Shown here: positions 13,594 to 59,645 of the stretch, one piece after another
Layout: the number at the start of each line of letters is the position of its first letter
Numbering within the stretch: position 1 is the stretch's first letter
Assembly: GCF_003205835.1 (NCBI RefSeq)
Contig: NZ_CP029773.1
Span: 1,706,501-1,770,500 of the forward strand
DNA from: Stenotrophomonas maltophilia
GTDB lineage: Bacteria; Pseudomonadota; Gammaproteobacteria; Xanthomonadales; Xanthomonadaceae
Reading direction: 5' to 3'
DNA: 64,000 nucleotides
Notes under the pieces: generated by a model
Seen by the model: only the letters and a program-made list of their open reading frames with translations
Told to the model about the DNA's origin: nothing
Database searches by the model: none
Position numbers and translations under genes: made by a program

Positions 13594-14514
13594 ATGCTCA
13601 AGCTCAGCCTCGATGCCCTGCAGATCCTGGACGCCATCGACCGCCGCGGCTCGTTCGCCGGTGCCGGCAAGGCCCTGCACAAGGTGCCTTCGACCATCTC
13701 CTACACCGTGGCCAAGCTGGAGGAGGACCTGGGCGTACAGCTGTTCGACCGGGTCGGCCCGCGCGCCGAGCCGACCGAGGCTGGCCGCGCGCTGCTGGAC
13801 GAAGGACGGCACCTGCTGCGCGCGGCCCGGGAGCTGGAACTGCGGGTGCGCCGGGTGGCGTCGGGCTGGGAGACCGAACTGACCCTGGCGGTGGACTCGG
13901 TGTTCCCGACCTGGCTGCTCGGCCCGGACATCGCCGCGTTTCGTGAGGCCGAGGCACCGACCCGGCTGCGGTTGATCGGCGAAGCCCTGTCCGGTACCTG
14001 GGAGGCCTTGCTGGACCGCCGTGCCGACCTGCTGGTCGGTGCGCCGGGCGAGGGTCCCAGCGGCGGCGGTTACGTGGTCGAGCCGCTGGGCACGGTGGAG
14101 TTCGTGTTCGCGGTCGCCCCCGACCATCCGTTGGCTGCAGTGCCGGGTGTGCTCGGTCGCGAGCAGCTGGTCGAACACTGCGCGATCGCGGTCTCCGATT
14201 CGGCGCGACGGCTGCTGCCGCGCACGGTCGGCCTGTTGATGGGGCAGGAGATGCTGACGGTGCCGGACATGGCCAGCAAGCTGAAGCTGCAGTGCGAAGG
14301 CGTGGGCTTCGGTTTCCTGCCCGAGCCGTGCGCGCGCGCGGCGGTGGCGCGTGGCCAGCTGGTGATCCGTGAGGTGGAGGAGCACAAGCCGGAAGAGACC
14401 TTCTGGCTGGCCTGGCGCACCGGCGAGGATGGTGCCGCACTGCGCTGGTGGCGAGAGCGCCTGCGCAGGCCGGAGCTGCTGTCGCAGTGGTGGCAGGCAA
14501 TGGCCAGGGGGTAG
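13594..14514 (+). CDS. LysR-family transcriptional regulator
   Basis: A 306-residue LysR-type regulator. The N-terminal winged helix-turn-helix spans about residues 3-60 (LDALQILDAIDRRGSFAGAG, VPSTISYTVAKLEEDLG, LFDR). A periplasmic-binding-protein-like effector domain starts near residue 92 (ELTLAVDSVFPTWLL, LLVGAPGEGP). It probably controls the divergent pirin gene. No clear ribosome-binding site precedes the ATG, and a palindrome abuts the start, so the message may have a very short leader. Confidence 0.88.
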   Translation: MLKLSLDALQILDAIDRRGSFAGAGKALHKVPSTISYTVAKLEEDLGVQLFDRVGPRAEPTEAGRALLDEGRHLLRAARELELRVRRVASGWETELTLAVDSVFPTWLLGPDIAAFREAEAPTRLRLIGEALSGTWEALLDRRADLLVGAPGEGPSGGGYVVEPLGTVEFVFAVAPDHPLAAVPGVLGREQLVEHCAIAVSDSARRLLPRTVGLLMGQEMLTVPDMASKLKLQCEGVGFGFLPEPCARAAVARGQLVIREVEEHKPEETFWLAWRTGEDGAALRWWRERLRRPELLSQWWQAMARG

Positions 14515-14597
14515 GGGTTTGGCAGGGCTGCGCCCTGCACCCGCTACGAGCTGGAGCAACAGCAACAGCAACAGCAGAAGCTGGTTTCCTGAGGGAT

Positions 14598-14699
14598 GGC
14601 GGGGTGGGTCCGGTTGCGGGGGACGCTGCAAGTACGTCCATGTAAGCTCGGTCGCCGCATCCATGCGGCTCACGCCCCCGCAACCGGACCCACCCCGCC
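14598..14699 (-). repeat. Long hairpin A
   Basis: Perfect 25-bp arms at 14598-14622 and 14675-14699 (beginning GGCGGGGTGGGTCC). Read on the minus strand the loop carries the family core: GTGAGC, GCATGGATGC, GACCGAGC, then ATGGA. The arm is the same as that of hairpin E at 59461 except for one base pair (G-C here, A-T there). Confidence 0.85.
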
Positions 14700-14742
14700 T
14701 TCGACAGTTTTCCGCGATCTGTCGGAACGGCGTACTGCTCTG

Positions 14743-14855
14743 GTAGGTGTCGACCTTGGTCGACACGGTAGATCCACGCCATGCGTGGATGCTTTTCGAT
14801 CAATTGTCGAAATATTCGATTCCGATGGAGTCATCCACGCATGGCGTGGATCTAC
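14743..14855. repeat. SMAG (GTAG-type) palindromes, three copies
   Basis: There is one GTAGGTGTCGACC-type copy at 14743-14766, then GTAGATCCACG-type copies at 14768-14790 and, inverted, 14833-14855. The last two can fold together into a larger stem. They lie in the spacer between hairpins A and B. Confidence 0.85.
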
Positions 14856-14880
14856 CAGATCGCGGAAATCTGTCAGAGGT

Positions 14881-14978
14881 GGGGCGGCATGGGCAGGCAG
14901 GACCGTTGGCGGCATGGATGCCGCCATCGAGCCCCCATGGATGGGTTTACGGCGTGTCCTGCCTGTCCATGCCGCCCC
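14881..14978 (+). repeat. Long hairpin B
   Basis: Arms 14881-14903 and 14956-14978 (GGGGCGGCATGGGCAGG and onward) pair with a single mismatch. The core reads CGTTGGC, GGCATGGATGCC, ATCGAGCCCCCATGG, then GGGTTTACGGCGTG. It is preceded by AAATCTGTCAGAGG, the inner boundary motif of the family. Confidence 0.85.
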
Positions 14979-15083
14979 GCCAACCCACGGAATGCCAGCT
15001 TCTGCTGTTGCCGTTGCCGTTGCCGTTGCCTTGGCTTGAAGCATCTGCAGGTGCAGGGCGCAGCCCTGCCGAAAAACACACAT

Positions 15084-15113
15084 AAAAAAACAGCAGGCCG
15101 GGGCCTGCTGTTT
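15084..15113 (-). terminator. Rho-independent terminator of the tRNA-Arg cluster
   Basis: On the minus strand a GC-rich stem (CAGCAGGCC pairing with GGCCTGCTG) is followed by seven T residues, just downstream of the last tRNA-Arg gene. Confidence 0.85.
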
Positions 15114-15121
15114 CGGTGTAA

Positions 15122-15198
15122 TGGTGCGCCCGGAGAGATTCGAACTCCCGACCGCCTGGTTCGTAGCCAGGTACTCTATCCAACTGAGCTACGGGCGC
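15122..15198 (-). tRNA. tRNA-Arg(ACG), copy 3 in transcription order
   Basis: A 77-nt cloverleaf: acceptor GCGCCCG, D-arm GCTCAGTTGGATAGAGT, anticodon loop CTACGAA (anticodon ACG, read as ICG), T-arm GTTCGAATC. The CCA end is encoded. It is followed by the terminator at 15084-15113. Confidence 0.96.
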
Positions 15199-36569: not shown

Positions 36570-36673
36570 GGCCCTGCGGAGGGATTGCGCAGGGGGCGCC
36601 ATGAATCCATCCCTGGAGGCTCGGGCGCGCCATCCATGGCGCTTACGCCCCTGCGCAATCCCTCTGCAGGGCC
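36570..36673 (-). repeat. Long hairpin G
   Basis: Arms 36570-36595 and 36648-36673 (GGCCCTGCGGAGGG and onward) are 26 bp with a single G-T-type mismatch. The core on the minus strand has GTAAGCGCCATGGATGGCGC, then CGAGCC and GGGATGG. It is followed by ACGGACAGTTTCC, the inner boundary. It forms an inverted pair with hairpin F, with eda between them. Confidence 0.83.
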
Positions 36674-36755
36674 ACGGACAGTTTCCGTGCGCCGCCACCG
36701 CGGAATGAAGAAGGAAGAGCAGGAGCGGGTCGCGCGCTTTGCGCGCTCGTCGCCC

Positions 36756-36795
36756 GGGGTCGGATCCCTTTCCCGGTGGGAAAGGGCTCTGACCC
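36756..36795. repeat. REP-type palindrome (GGGGTCGGATCC type)
   Basis: An imperfect inverted repeat, diverged from the one at 17229-17269, in the gap after hairpin G and before the end of eda. The gap 36516-36845 holds only this palindrome, hairpin G and one SMAG. Confidence 0.8.
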
Positions 36796-36808
36796 TTGAT
36801 GATGCCGG

Positions 36809-36832
36809 AGCCGAGCGTGGGCTCGGCTCTAC
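36809..36832. repeat. SMAG palindrome, single inverted copy
   Basis: AGCCGAGCGTGGGCTCGGCT followed by CTAC, the inverted GTAG end, lies 14 bp after the eda stop codon. Confidence 0.75.
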
Positions 36833-36845
36833 ACCTTTGTCGGGC

Positions 36846-37505
36846 TCAGTGGCCGCGCACGCGCTTGATGATCTTCGCGGCGTCAGCGGCGCTGGCGCGC
36901 ACCTTGTCCCATGCGCCGTCGGCGATCCAGTTGCCCGGCACCATCCACGAACCGCCGATGCAGACCACGTTCTTCTGCTCGAGGTACTCAGCGGCGGTGT
37001 TTTCGGTGATGCCACCGGTCGGGCACAGCTTGAGGTCGGCGACCGGGCCGGCCAGGCCCTTGATCATCGCCAGCCCACCCACGGCCGTGGCCGGGAACAG
37101 CTTGCACACGCGGAAGCCACGCGCATACAGCGACAGCAGCTCGGTCGGCGTTGCTGCACCCGGCACCACCGGCAGCGGCGCAGCGGCCAATGCATCGGCC
37201 AGCGCCGGCGGCGTGCCCGGTGTCACCAGGAAGTCCGCGCCCGCATCGATCGACTGCTGCATCTGCTCCACGGTCAGCACCGTGCCCGCACCCACCACCA
37301 CGTCCGGCAGCTCGCGCTTGAGCATCGCCAGCGCTTCCATCGCCACCGGCGTACGCAGCGTCAGCTCGATCGCCGGCAAACCACCTTCCAGCAGCGCCGC
37401 GCTGACCGCACGCGCCTGGTCCAGCGTATGAATCGTCACCACCGGCAGGATGCCCGCCGCACGCAACAGCTCCGCCGCCTTCACCTGATGTTGTTCGATA
37501 CCCAT
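36846..37505 (-). CDS. eda: 2-dehydro-3-deoxyphosphogluconate (KHG/KDPG) aldolase
   Basis: This 219-residue class I aldolase splits KDPG to pyruvate and glyceraldehyde-3-phosphate, the last step of the Entner-Doudoroff pathway. GLPAIELTLRTPVAMEAL holds the catalytic Glu and Arg, VVGAGTVLT follows, FLVTPGTPP, and the Schiff-base Lys is in CKLFPATAVGG. It normally follows edd directly; here hairpin F and a decayed IS lie between them. The 5' leader is made of degenerate A/G-rich hexamers (GCAGAA, GCAAAG), without a strong ribosome-binding site. Confidence 0.94.
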   Translation of the reverse strand: MGIEQHQVKAAELLRAAGILPVVTIHTLDQARAVSAALLEGGLPAIELTLRTPVAMEALAMLKRELPDVVVGAGTVLTVEQMQQSIDAGADFLVTPGTPPALADALAAAPLPVVPGAATPTELLSLYARGFRVCKLFPATAVGGLAMIKGLAGPVADLKLCPTGGITENTAAEYLEQKNVVCIGGSWMVPGNWIADGAWDKVRASAADAAKIIKRVRGH

Positions 37506-37589
37506 AGCTCTGCTTCTGCCTTTGCTTCTGCGTTTGAATTTGATTTTCAGTGATCACTTCGCGGCGCGAGGGCGCCGGGAAACTGTCCT

Positions 37590-37686
37590 GAGGCGGCGGG
37601 TAGCCCCCACCAGGACCGTGAGCGCCATGGATGGCGCGACCGAGCCCCCATGGATGGGTTTACGGCGTGTCCTGGTGGGGGCTACC
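37590..37686 (+). repeat. Long hairpin F, right arm split by the insertion sequence
   Basis: The left arm 37590-37616 (GAGGCGGCGGGTAGCCCCC and onward) pairs with 37669-37686, and the rest of the right arm resumes at 38943-38951 after the IS. Taking the IS and one ACC away restores a perfect 27-bp stem. The core reads CGTGAGCGCCATGGATGGC, then CCGAGCCCCCATGG and GGGTTTACGGCGTG. AAACTGTCCT precedes it. Confidence 0.85.
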
Positions 37687-38939
37687 TGATCTGGCTCCCT
37701 GAAAACGGACGCCATGAAGCCGTTTCAGGCGGCGGCTTTGAGCTGCCGGGCATAGGTGTTGGGCGACTGATAGCCCAGCGCCGAGTGTAGCCGAGCGGGA
37801 TTGTAGAAACCGTGGATGTAGGCCGCAATGGACTGGCGGGCCTGTTCCCGGCTCACGTATGGATCAGCAGCCGCTTCGGCCTTGAGCGTGGCAAAAAAGC
37901 TCTCGGCCACCGCGTTATCCCAGCAGTTGCCTGGGCGGCTCATGCTTTGAACCACCCCGCAGGACTCCAAGAGCTGGCGATACTCGTTGCCCCAGTACTG
38001 CCCGCCTCGATCCGAATGGAAGATCAGGCCGGGTGGTTGGGGATGAAGCGCCCAGGCATTGGCAAAGGCTTTCAGCACTACGTCCTCGGTCATGCGCTCG
38101 GAGACGCTGTAGCCCAGCACCTGCCGGGTCTGGATGCTGATGACCACGGCCAAATGCAGCCAGCCTGGCGAGTGGCCACATAGGTGATATCGCCGACCCA
38201 CGCCGATGGACCCGTGCCGGGAGTGAATTGTCGATGCCAGTAGGTTTGGGGCGAGCTGGGGCCGACCTGCGGCAGGGGTTTTGCGCCGGGAGCGTCCCTT
38301 GATCTTGCCTTGGATGCGCTCCTCGGCCACTTAACCGGAGCCACCCGCTTGTGGCCAACGGCATGATTTCGGGCGCGCAGGGCCCTGACCAGCCGATGTC
38401 GGCCGTAACTGCGATTGCTGGCCGCATGAATGGCCGCAGCTCAGTACGAAGAACGGCAATCGGCAATCATCGGTTCGGGCGGACTGTCGGTGCAGATAAT
38501 CATGGAACCAGAGACCGGATACGCCGAGAACACGACCACAGCACCCGAGCGGGTAACGAGTCCTATGACGGGCGACGAAGGCGTACCTCAACTTGGACTC
38601 TTTGCAAAGAACGCCGCCGTTTTTTTAGGATTCTCGCTCCATCTCAGATTGGCGTTCTCGGCCGCAAGGCGGCTGATCTCGCTTTCCAGGTCAGTGGCCG
38701 GCCTGCGAGCCTCAGACGTCAACGAGCGCCCAGCACGGACCGCGTCAATCAATTTGCAGCGTCTTGACGGACATTTCCAGCTGGCGGGCCGCTGCGGCTG
38801 GGCCAAGCGATTCGGCCAACTCCACGGCCTGGTGCTTGAACTCATCGGTATAGCTACGGCGGGTAATACGGGACATAAAGGACCTCCAAGTGCGATCAAA
38901 GTATCGCTTCTTGGCGTCCGCTGACGGGGAGCCAGATCA
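37687..38939 (-). mobile_element. Decayed IS3-family insertion sequence (1253 bp)
   Basis: The ends are inverted repeats: TGATCTGGCTCCC on the left and its complement GGGAGCCAGATCA on the right, each with CGGACGCC a few bases further in. A 3-bp duplication ACC flanks it (37684-37686 and 38940-38942). It lies between edd and eda in the same orientation as the operon and inside the right arm of hairpin F. Termini and duplication are intact, so it moved in as a whole and decayed in place. Confidence 0.93.
37725..38876 (-). pseudogene. IS3-type transposase orfA/orfB remnants, several frameshifts
   Basis: OrfA begins at the ATG 38876 (MSRITRRSYTDEFKHQAVEL, then AARQLEMSVKTLQ) and loses frame at once; the downstream part continues as LIDAVRAGRSLTSEA in another frame and breaks again near AAFFAK. 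OrfB pieces follow (MRYAFVARHRTRYPL; then RILVTADIGWSG-like fragments), and the last 200 codons are open and contain the integrase-core pieces HSDRGGQYWGNEYRQLL and MSRPGNCWDNAVAESFF with the DDE Asp and Glu. At least three frameshifts rule out a working transposase. Confidence 0.9.
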
Positions 38940-59142: not shown

Positions 59143-59211
<69 letters not shown>

Positions 59212-59231
59212 CTCTTGGCTGTCTGTTGGTT

Positions 59232-59337
59232 AGGCGGGGCGGTGTGGGTTGGCAGGACACGCCGTAAACCCGTCCATGGGGGCTCGATGGCGCCATCCAT
59301 GGCGCCAACGGTCCTGCCAACCCACACCGCCCCGCCT
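59232..59337 (-). repeat. Long hairpin D
   Basis: Perfect 27-bp arms at 59232-59258 and 59311-59337 (AGGCGGGGCGGTGTGGG and onward). The core, on the minus strand, has CGTTGGCGCCATGGATGGCG, ATCGAGCCCCCATGG and GGGTTTACGGCGTG. It is followed by CTGACAGGTTCC, the inner boundary. Confidence 0.86.
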
Positions 59338-59413
59338 CTGACAGGTTCCCGGTGACGGTGACAACGGCTGGGCTTCTGATCTCATCAATTCCTTCGATAT
59401 CTGACAGATGTTC

Positions 59414-59436
59414 ATCCACGCATGGCGTGGATCTAC
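59414..59436. repeat. SMAG palindrome between hairpins D and E
   Basis: An inverted GTAGATCCACGCCATGCG copy, the same type and position as in the spacer of module 1. TGCAGATTGCAGGAAACTGTC follows in two steps leading to hairpin E. Confidence 0.8.
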
Positions 59437-59460
59437 TGCAGATTGCAGGAAACTGTCGAA

Positions 59461-59562
59461 GGCGGGGTGGGTCCGGTTGAGGGGGTGTGAGCGGCATGGA
59501 TGCCGCGACCAAGCCCCCATGGATGGGTTTACGGCGTCCCCCTCAACCGGACCCACCCCGCC
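59461..59562 (+). repeat. Long hairpin E
   Basis: Perfect 25-bp arms at 59461-59485 and 59538-59562 (GGCGGGGTGGGTCC start). The stem equals that of hairpin A except for one pair, A-T in place of C-G. Core: GTGAGCGGCATGGATGCCGC, then CCAAGCCCCCATGG and GGGTTTACGGCGT. Confidence 0.86.
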
Positions 59563-59582
59563 ATCCCACAGAAAACCAGCTT

Positions 59583-59645
59583 TTGACGTTGACGTTGACG
59601 TTGCTGTGGCTTCTGCGGGTGCCGGCCGCGGGCCGGCCGAACTAC
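59583..59645. repeat. TTGACG hexamer tandem and SMAG-like palindrome after hairpin E
   Basis: Three TTGACG units (59583-59600), then TTGCTG, then an inverted GTAGT-type palindrome (GTGCCGGCCGCGGGCCGGC, ending ACTAC at 59645). Confidence 0.78.

Follow-up and report, generated by a model that had tools for sequence, protein, structure and literature searches.

The 550-base module at 14521–15070 of the window (the whole 64,000-nucleotide stretch of Stenotrophomonas maltophilia DNA analysed here) is one copy of a large intergenic chromosomal repeat family. We lean towards reading it as a REP-like composite intergenic element organised around a conserved fold that occurs twice, facing outward, and whose small loops are predicted binding sites of the global RNA-binding regulator RsmA/CsrA.

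Layout and copies of the module

The perfect inverted 20-mers described for the module in an earlier note are present at 14521–14540 (plus strand) and 15051–15070, with a third copy at 59143–59162. At up to 3 mismatches the 20-mer has just 3 matches in the window, against an average of 0.06 in shuffled sequences, and the inverted repeat of the module extends to 27 nt (93%) once mismatches are allowed. The symmetric order proposed for the interior was borne out, running from hexamers through hairpin A, boundary motif, GTAG-type palindromes, boundary motif and hairpin B to hexamers. So was the lack of an open reading frame: mechanical ORFs cross the module, and a codon-usage gene finder calls none inside it. 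A gene at 13594–14514, LysR-type by eye, lies on the left, and tRNA genes begin at 15125 on the right. Features are listed below by position in the window.

14521–14540, plus strand: left 20-mer, holding the stop-proximal hairpin GCAGGGC-TGC-GCCCTGC (14522–14538), 7 nt past the LysR stop codon
14555–14578, plus strand: left hexamer tandem, AGCAAC-like; its form varies among the copies read
14598–14699, minus strand: hairpin A, a 25-bp outer stem and a 52-nt three-way junction; ANGGAN on the minus strand; model match 14600–14697
14635–14642, minus strand: small hairpin 1 of hairpin A, loop C-ATGGAC-G (CANGGANG)
14658–14665, minus strand: small hairpin 2 of hairpin A, loop C-ATGGAT-G (CANGGANG)
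14700–14725, plus strand: left boundary motif TTCGACAG-N11-CTGTCGG
14742–14766, plus strand: central GTAG-type palindrome GGTAGGTGTCGACCTTGGTCGACAC, by eye like the listed REP classes Smal3/S_sp2
14768–14790, plus strand: GTAG-type palindrome GTAGATCCACGCCATGCGTGGAT, the S_sp1 REP listed in Nunvar et al. 2010
14833–14855, minus strand: inverted copy of palindrome GTAGATCCACGCCATGCGTGGAT
14856–14880, minus strand: right boundary motif, inverted
14880–14981, plus strand: hairpin B, with the architecture of hairpin A; ANGGAN on the plus strand; model match 14881–14978
14913–14920, plus strand: small hairpin 2 of hairpin B, loop C-ATGGAT-G
14936–14943, plus strand: small hairpin 1 of hairpin B, loop C-ATGGAT-G
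15003–15030, minus strand: right hexamer tandem
15051–15070, minus strand: right 20-mer, including the terminal hairpin 15053–15069
15087–15114, minus strand: intrinsic-terminator-like site (terminator scan) between the tRNA genes and the module
36573–36670, minus strand: single family hairpin downstream of an eda-like gene (by eye)
37597–37688, plus strand: single family hairpin on the opposite side of the eda-like gene
59143–59640, no strand assigned: second two-hairpin module, flanked by divergent genes; its right terminal palindrome differs in sequence
59236–59333, minus strand: hairpin A of the second module (model match)
59463–59560, plus strand: hairpin B of the second module (model match)

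The copy at 59143 had been taken for a left half only; both long hairpins are present there, and it is the palindrome at its right end that differs from the 20-mer. Elsewhere in the window, the eda-like aldolase gene (by eye) sits between its two single hairpins ~1 kb apart (36573–37688), and an IS3-type transposase piece (by eye) adjoins this stretch at 37725–38147.

Genome counts were made on the 4.89-Mb contig containing the window (G000). The 20-mer core has 38 copies at no more than 1 mismatch (control, 0), the boundary motif 104 (control, 2) and the long-hairpin model 124 matches at E ≤ 1e-3, including a single partial one; these family-wide numbers rule out the module as a two-copy oddity. 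Clustering of 20-mers and boundary motifs with DNA matches gave 78 clusters. With 3 clusters inside called genes and 1 lacking a left gene set aside, 74 lie between two genes called by the codon-usage gene finder: 24 convergent, 41 tandem and 9 divergent. The corresponding figures for neighbouring gene pairs in the window are 10, 40 and 11 (n = 61), and for window gaps of at least 150 bp they are 4, 8 and 7 (n = 19). Part order was constant in the 26 copies of the 20-mer that were read, among which half-copies and nested palindromic inserts occur. Such inserts, of roughly 80 bp, sit in some long hairpins, in the region of the small ones (L006, L009, L002 and other loci of this genome).

Fold, distribution and loops of the long hairpins

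Each long hairpin has outer arms of ~25 bp around an inner module, 52 nt in most copies, that forms a three-way junction; one of its small hairpins has 5–7 bp, and the other consists of 3 bp, a 5-nt bulge and 3 bp. In an alignment of 69 sequences, both sides have changed at 31 of the 37 base pairs, compared with 12–15 in slid controls, and the covariation score is 0.610 versus 0.144 when shuffled. The alignment was drawn from 127 unique sequences (70 drawn, one non-family hairpin in L045 removed by hand), themselves representing the 146 hairpins that remained after 4 off-centre ones were dropped from 150; this set and the set of 171 used below each contain at least one non-family hairpin (in L045). 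RNAfold favours other pairings over the three-way fold for both window hairpins (−71.5 vs −65.4 and −77.4 vs −73.7 kcal/mol), and across 171 sequences it leaves the GGA of loop 1 mostly unpaired in 68% and that of loop 2 in 94%. Kissing between the loops of hairpins A and B was rejected, 6 of 30 pairs being identical against 5.8 expected.

Stem wobbles on the ANGGAN strand favour G–U over A–C (62:16 in 13-nt context; 44:15 in 7-nt context, p = 2e-4), which points to the outward-read strand as probably the one that folds; under the strictest merging of events, which goes by column and pair type, the ratio falls to 25:14 (p = 0.11) and is no longer significant. DNA hairpins too tolerate G–T better than A–C, and wobbles do not tell RNA from single-stranded DNA.

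In searches with a covariance model of the hairpin, matches came from 40 of 149 genomes of the taxonomic family (17 of 54 genera) and from 46 of 274 genomes of the class (41 of 221 genera), own genus included; the best 27 candidates per genome were scored in the family search and the best 15 in the class search. Matches are often as many as these limits allow, and as many as about 125 were counted in one genome at a limit of 150. These matches in other genera overturned a Stenotrophomonas-only family, which the boundary motif had suggested: the motif has any match in 22 of 297 genomes, with at least 18 matches in 9 of 17 same-genus genomes and 0–2 in the others. The exact core string occurs in 48 stretches of genome contigs, 46 of them in records named Stenotrophomonas (S. 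maltophilia, geniculata, pavanii, sepilia and unnamed Stenotrophomonas, of the Stenotrophomonas maltophilia complex). The other two stretches are Stenotrophomonas-type repeat sequence in records named Rickettsia endosymbiont MAG (L184) and Bacillus subtilis SK7B5 (L204), probably through contamination. No Rfam family reaches its gathering threshold in the module or in 12 loci of the repeat family; most matches at E ≤ 10 are to microRNA hairpins and were regarded as chance.

The fixed loop letters are among the most constant positions of this fold, as are several linker positions. A first detector, which ignored loop letters and required six-base loops, was applied to 186 hairpins (102 in the own genome, 60 in relatives, 24 in genome G037); 150 were of suitable length with a small hairpin, and a loop 1 was obtained from 145. 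Loop 2 reads C-ATGGAT-G in 147 of the 150 and loop 1 C-ANGGAN-G in 142 of the 145. In the 171 distinct sequences, the two small hairpins carry a CANGGANG loop in 168 and 166 cases. Loop 1 is CANGGAYG in 163 of them, with all four bases seen at both N positions, and the N positions of loop 2 are nearly fixed within Stenotrophomonas (T in 170 and 168). Entropy is 0.07–0.23 bits at the fixed loop letters and 1.50 and 1.16 at the N positions of loop 1 (127 sequences); conservation at linker columns 26, 50, 67, 70 and 74 comes close to that of the loops, while other linker positions vary. As a control, ANGGAN was found in 0 of 298 other hexaloop hairpins of the window (stem ≥ 5).

The pattern extends to other families of the class. 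Matches were read in 24 genomes representing 20 other families, 32 in all. Every one has CANGGANG as loop 1 and 28 have it as loop 2, where the remaining four are three A(N)GGA pentaloops and a broken loop; both N positions vary in both loops, and the outer stems are unlike those of Stenotrophomonas and unlike one another. Most of them were top-scoring, and each genome contributed one or two (35 rows less 3 weak antisense self-matches); the model includes the loops and so somewhat favours CANGGANG, the loops making up a small part of the 77–101-bit scores. Within the taxonomic family, A(N)GGA loops also end hairpins of other architecture, CAGGAYG pentaloops included. Long hairpins with another inner layout and CATGGATG hexaloops or CAGGAYG pentaloops were seen at L264, L267 and L270 (genus g44), and likewise at L238, L249 and L250 (genera g4, g27 and g39, not told apart); these may be distinct families that follow a common loop logic.

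A second ANGGA follows 23 nt past the first in 93 of 102 halves (halves chosen by their first loop), and a 23-nt spacing of loop starts is within reach of one RsmA/CsrA dimer. The own genome has one canonical CsrA/RsmA gene match (E = 2e-25), the solved structures of its relatives including 2jpp and 2mf0. The CsrA/RsmA site is described as an ANGGAN hexaloop in which A and GGA are contacted and N is variable; the SELEX consensus is RUACARGGAUGU, with AC/GU paired and mostly hexaloops, and one dimer can bridge two sites (PMC7652899). The RMfam paper describes CsrA-type motifs as generally paired. The hairpins combine an ANGGAN hexaloop closed by C–G, two sites in dimer reach and a cognate protein gene in the same genome. 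Fixed A-GGA, free N, C–G closure, pairing of sites, the pentaloops and the single CsrA/RsmA gene together make RsmA/CsrA binding by the long hairpins the most economical account, one to which we give somewhat better than an even chance from sequence evidence. The two loops of each hairpin, with starts 23 nt apart, would then be tandem predicted sites for one dimer.

It is very improbable that the repeats are functionless palindromic clutter, self-spreading and kept by gene conversion and hairpin-templated repair. Nested palindromic inserts, the lack of strand bias and the swapping and contraction of cassettes between species (both below) would suit such clutter, but the fixed loop letters stay near-invariant in the genus and in other families, whereas stems, several linker positions and N letters change.

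Orientation, gene ends and transcription

In the own genome, hairpins less than 700 bp apart face outward in 34 of 34 pairs, at a spacing of 227–340 bp. Of 12 pairs picked by eye among the model matches listed, 11 are outward-facing; exceptions to outward pairing occur at L091, where the hairpin is flipped relative to other species, and at L253. ANGGAN lies on the outward-read strand, that is, in the far hairpin of any transcript crossing the module. The inversion of the long hairpins therefore means that a transcript crossing in either direction has one of them, the far one, in binding orientation.

Single hairpins between tandem genes in the own genome are 9 sense and 10 antisense; in other genera and families the counts between tandem genes, pairs included, are 21 and 18 (10 of the 32 matches in the class sit at the edge of their locus and lack gene context). 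Cis-regulation of the neighbouring mRNA was rejected on this lack of strand bias, which speaks for a trans role or a mobile origin. A wider reading, which we hold only tentatively and at less than even odds, is that many gammaproteobacteria have one dispersed repeat in up to a hundred or more chromosomal copies, with tandem RsmA/CsrA loops among its best-kept letters, and that pervasive or read-through transcription makes it a direction-independent, distributed sponge for this global post-transcriptional regulator, or else that it is a mobile family spreading by carrying the regulator's sites. Read-through RNAs from neighbours, or outward RNAs if any start inside the module, would act as dispersed RsmA decoys; alternatively, such RNAs could be RsmA-bound 3′ tails. 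The consequence of binding may be a decoy effect, tail protection or repeat spread. The promoter scan, which covers the sigma-70 type, found no sigma-70-like promoter in either window module; an internal sigma-70 promoter for outward RNAs was dropped for these two modules, with another promoter type kept as possible.

The terminal 20-mers show a distinct relation to stop codons. At gene ends facing a copy (n = 86), a 7-bp hairpin starts 7–16 nt past the stop in 49, 45 of the terminal type; at other gene ends (n = 57), a hairpin occurs at 7–16 nt in 13 and none is of the terminal type. Of the 24 convergent clusters, 7 have a terminal hairpin no more than 16 bp from each of the two stops. By eye, the terminal stems change on both sides together (GCAGGGC/GCCCTGC, GCCGGGC/GCCCGGC, GCCGGGT/ACCCGGC, CGCGGCC/GGCCGCG), around loops that include TGC, TTGCA and CTGCG. 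Owing to this position and these two-sided changes, the 20-mer fits a stop-proximal 3′-UTR hairpin better than a transposon tip, and such hairpins just past stop codons would probably protect or define mRNA 3′ ends, as REPs do. A second stop-proximal end type, roughly CCAACGGCGCAGCCCCTCGTGG or its 3′ part, was seen at gene ends of L058, L060, L115, L121, L138, L143 and L145.

These gene-end counts and paired stem changes are what would be expected if the whole module were a bidirectional 3′-end device, its hairpins stabilising or ending the flanking transcripts and its loop letters incidental. That account, which we consider improbable, explains the 20-mers but not the loop conservation. Moreover, the terminator scan reported neither terminal nor long hairpins of the two window modules as intrinsic terminators; its matches were just the tRNA-side site and a central palindrome in the first module, and two overlapping ones in the hexamer spacer (59204–59222) of the second. 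A Rho-utilisation (rut) role of the spacers was dropped, C being 0.297 and G 0.296 over 76 spacers, without C excess. Further against a 3′-end device, 5 two-hairpin regions lie between divergent genes, and the tRNA side of the window copy has its own terminator-like site at 15087–15114, which places the right end of the module outside the expected tRNA transcript.

Known systems, site comparison and mobility

If RsmA/CsrA binds the long hairpins, their closest analogues would be the decoys CsrB, RsmY and RsmZ, the likeness lying in several A(N)GGA-loop hairpins and in CAGGAYG pentaloop variants in one genus of the family. Those decoys are single-locus sRNAs, whereas the repeat family is dispersed: a genome can have as many as about 125 matches, and the hairpins have long closing stems and occur as inverted pairs. 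TwoAYGGAY RNA (RF01731), by name a carrier of two AYGGAY-type loops, is predicted to bind CsrA (PMC4333381). It is listed for human gut, gamma-Proteobacteria and Clostridiales and, unlike the dispersed hairpins of the window, is not presented as a repeat family in the description available; its covariance model has no match even at E ≤ 10 in 14500–15080, and none at gathering threshold in the window and 12 other loci. The SMAG/GTAG REPs and BIMEs of S. maltophilia share extragenic palindromes, high copy number and mosaic arrangement with the module, whose centre GTAG REPs form. A GTAG at one palindrome terminus is found in the central palindromes only; hairpins A and B and the 20-mers lack the tag and are not among the listed REPs. 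ERIC elements, ~100-bp palindromic intergenic repeats of gamma-proteobacteria, resemble the hairpins by description only.

Xanthomonas belongs to the same taxonomic family as Stenotrophomonas. Its RsmU is an RsmA-binding RNA from a 3′ UTR, a single locus reported by its authors solely in Xanthomonas, and a GGA-to-AAU mutant of it still bound RsmA and kept its effect (PMC7694677). As far as that account goes, RsmU is a mixed precedent for the repeat hairpins, in that binding survives the GGA change. Among open-access titles and abstract starts, nothing was found describing Stenotrophomonas or Xanthomonas repeats with CsrA/RsmA loops, and the core string of the hairpin has no mention in the open-access literature searched. 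REP-like repeats are usually regarded as sequence-poor palindromes; a class-wide repeat with drifting stems and fixed regulator-site letters would, if the RsmA/CsrA reading is true, tie repeat biology to Csr/Rsm control and add to RsmU another candidate for an RsmA-titrating RNA in Xanthomonadaceae.

The earlier note had viewed the module as a unit bearing terminal repeats. That it ends recurrently at about the 20-mers and is found again elsewhere agrees with this view, and at the tRNA site no borders away from the 20-mers were encountered; movement as a unit is unsupported. The tRNA site was compared at 50 loci, counting the own one; the tRNA is missing from 8. Among the 42 with the tRNA, outward hairpins stand on both sides in 18; 11 show only part of this arrangement (in some, hairpins with nested inserts escaped the detector) and 13 show no hairpin. 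Another gene adjoins the tRNA in 8 of these 13 (by eye), which are therefore not true empty sites. Two sites are near-empty: a stub like the right terminal hairpin remains in G026, and G003 has one small palindrome instead of the module. In G037, 11 of 12 sites aligned with G000 carry the module or part of it (five read by eye), and the twelfth (L120) has other palindromes in its place. Between species, interior cassettes are swapped, contracted or fused and the ends mostly stay. In this species-level comparison, no clean empty site was seen at the tRNA site or the five loci read against G037, nor any target duplication, in line with what had been noted for the module itself; excision or insertion as a unit is thus not seen within these genomes.

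These comparisons bear on a different origin for the outward pairs, a non-autonomous mobile element of REPIN/MITE type whose Y-shaped hairpins are inverted ends folded as single-stranded DNA and recognised by a transposase acting in trans; the ANGGAN loops would be its recognition letters and resemble RsmA sites by coincidence. We judge it unlikely yet keep it in view, because inverted pairs, patchy spread (46 of 274 class genomes) and lack of strand bias are its predictions. High copy number, intergenic placement (0 of 88 matches inside called ORFs, with the gene finder trained on the window) and the narrow 227–340-bp spacing also agree with it, the genome has four Y1-transposase matches, and the wobble bias is not decisive, since DNA hairpins could give it too. 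The paired inverted ends of MITEs and REPINs are present, but target-site duplication and clean empty sites are absent from the sites examined, and 11 of 12 aligned sites are common to G037. No family hairpin lies within 1.5 kb of any of the four Y1 transposases, and the genes inside three wider-spaced hairpin pairs (about 1–1.5 kb apart) are ordinary ones, not transposases; these two results speak against an autonomous Y1-type transposon at the loci looked at. Plasmid and phage sequences gave no match to the repeat family. Finally, coincidence would have to explain the near-exclusive variation at the N positions of the loops and the AGGA kept in pentaloops.

Two copies in the own genome are split by IS110-like sequence (by eye), at L016/L017 and L027 (about 2061900–2063270 and 3764900). 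The family is sparse at about 2.21–3.30 Mb, where about a fifth of the genome holds 4 of 78 clusters and 8 of 124 hairpin matches; this stretch sits roughly opposite the contig start.
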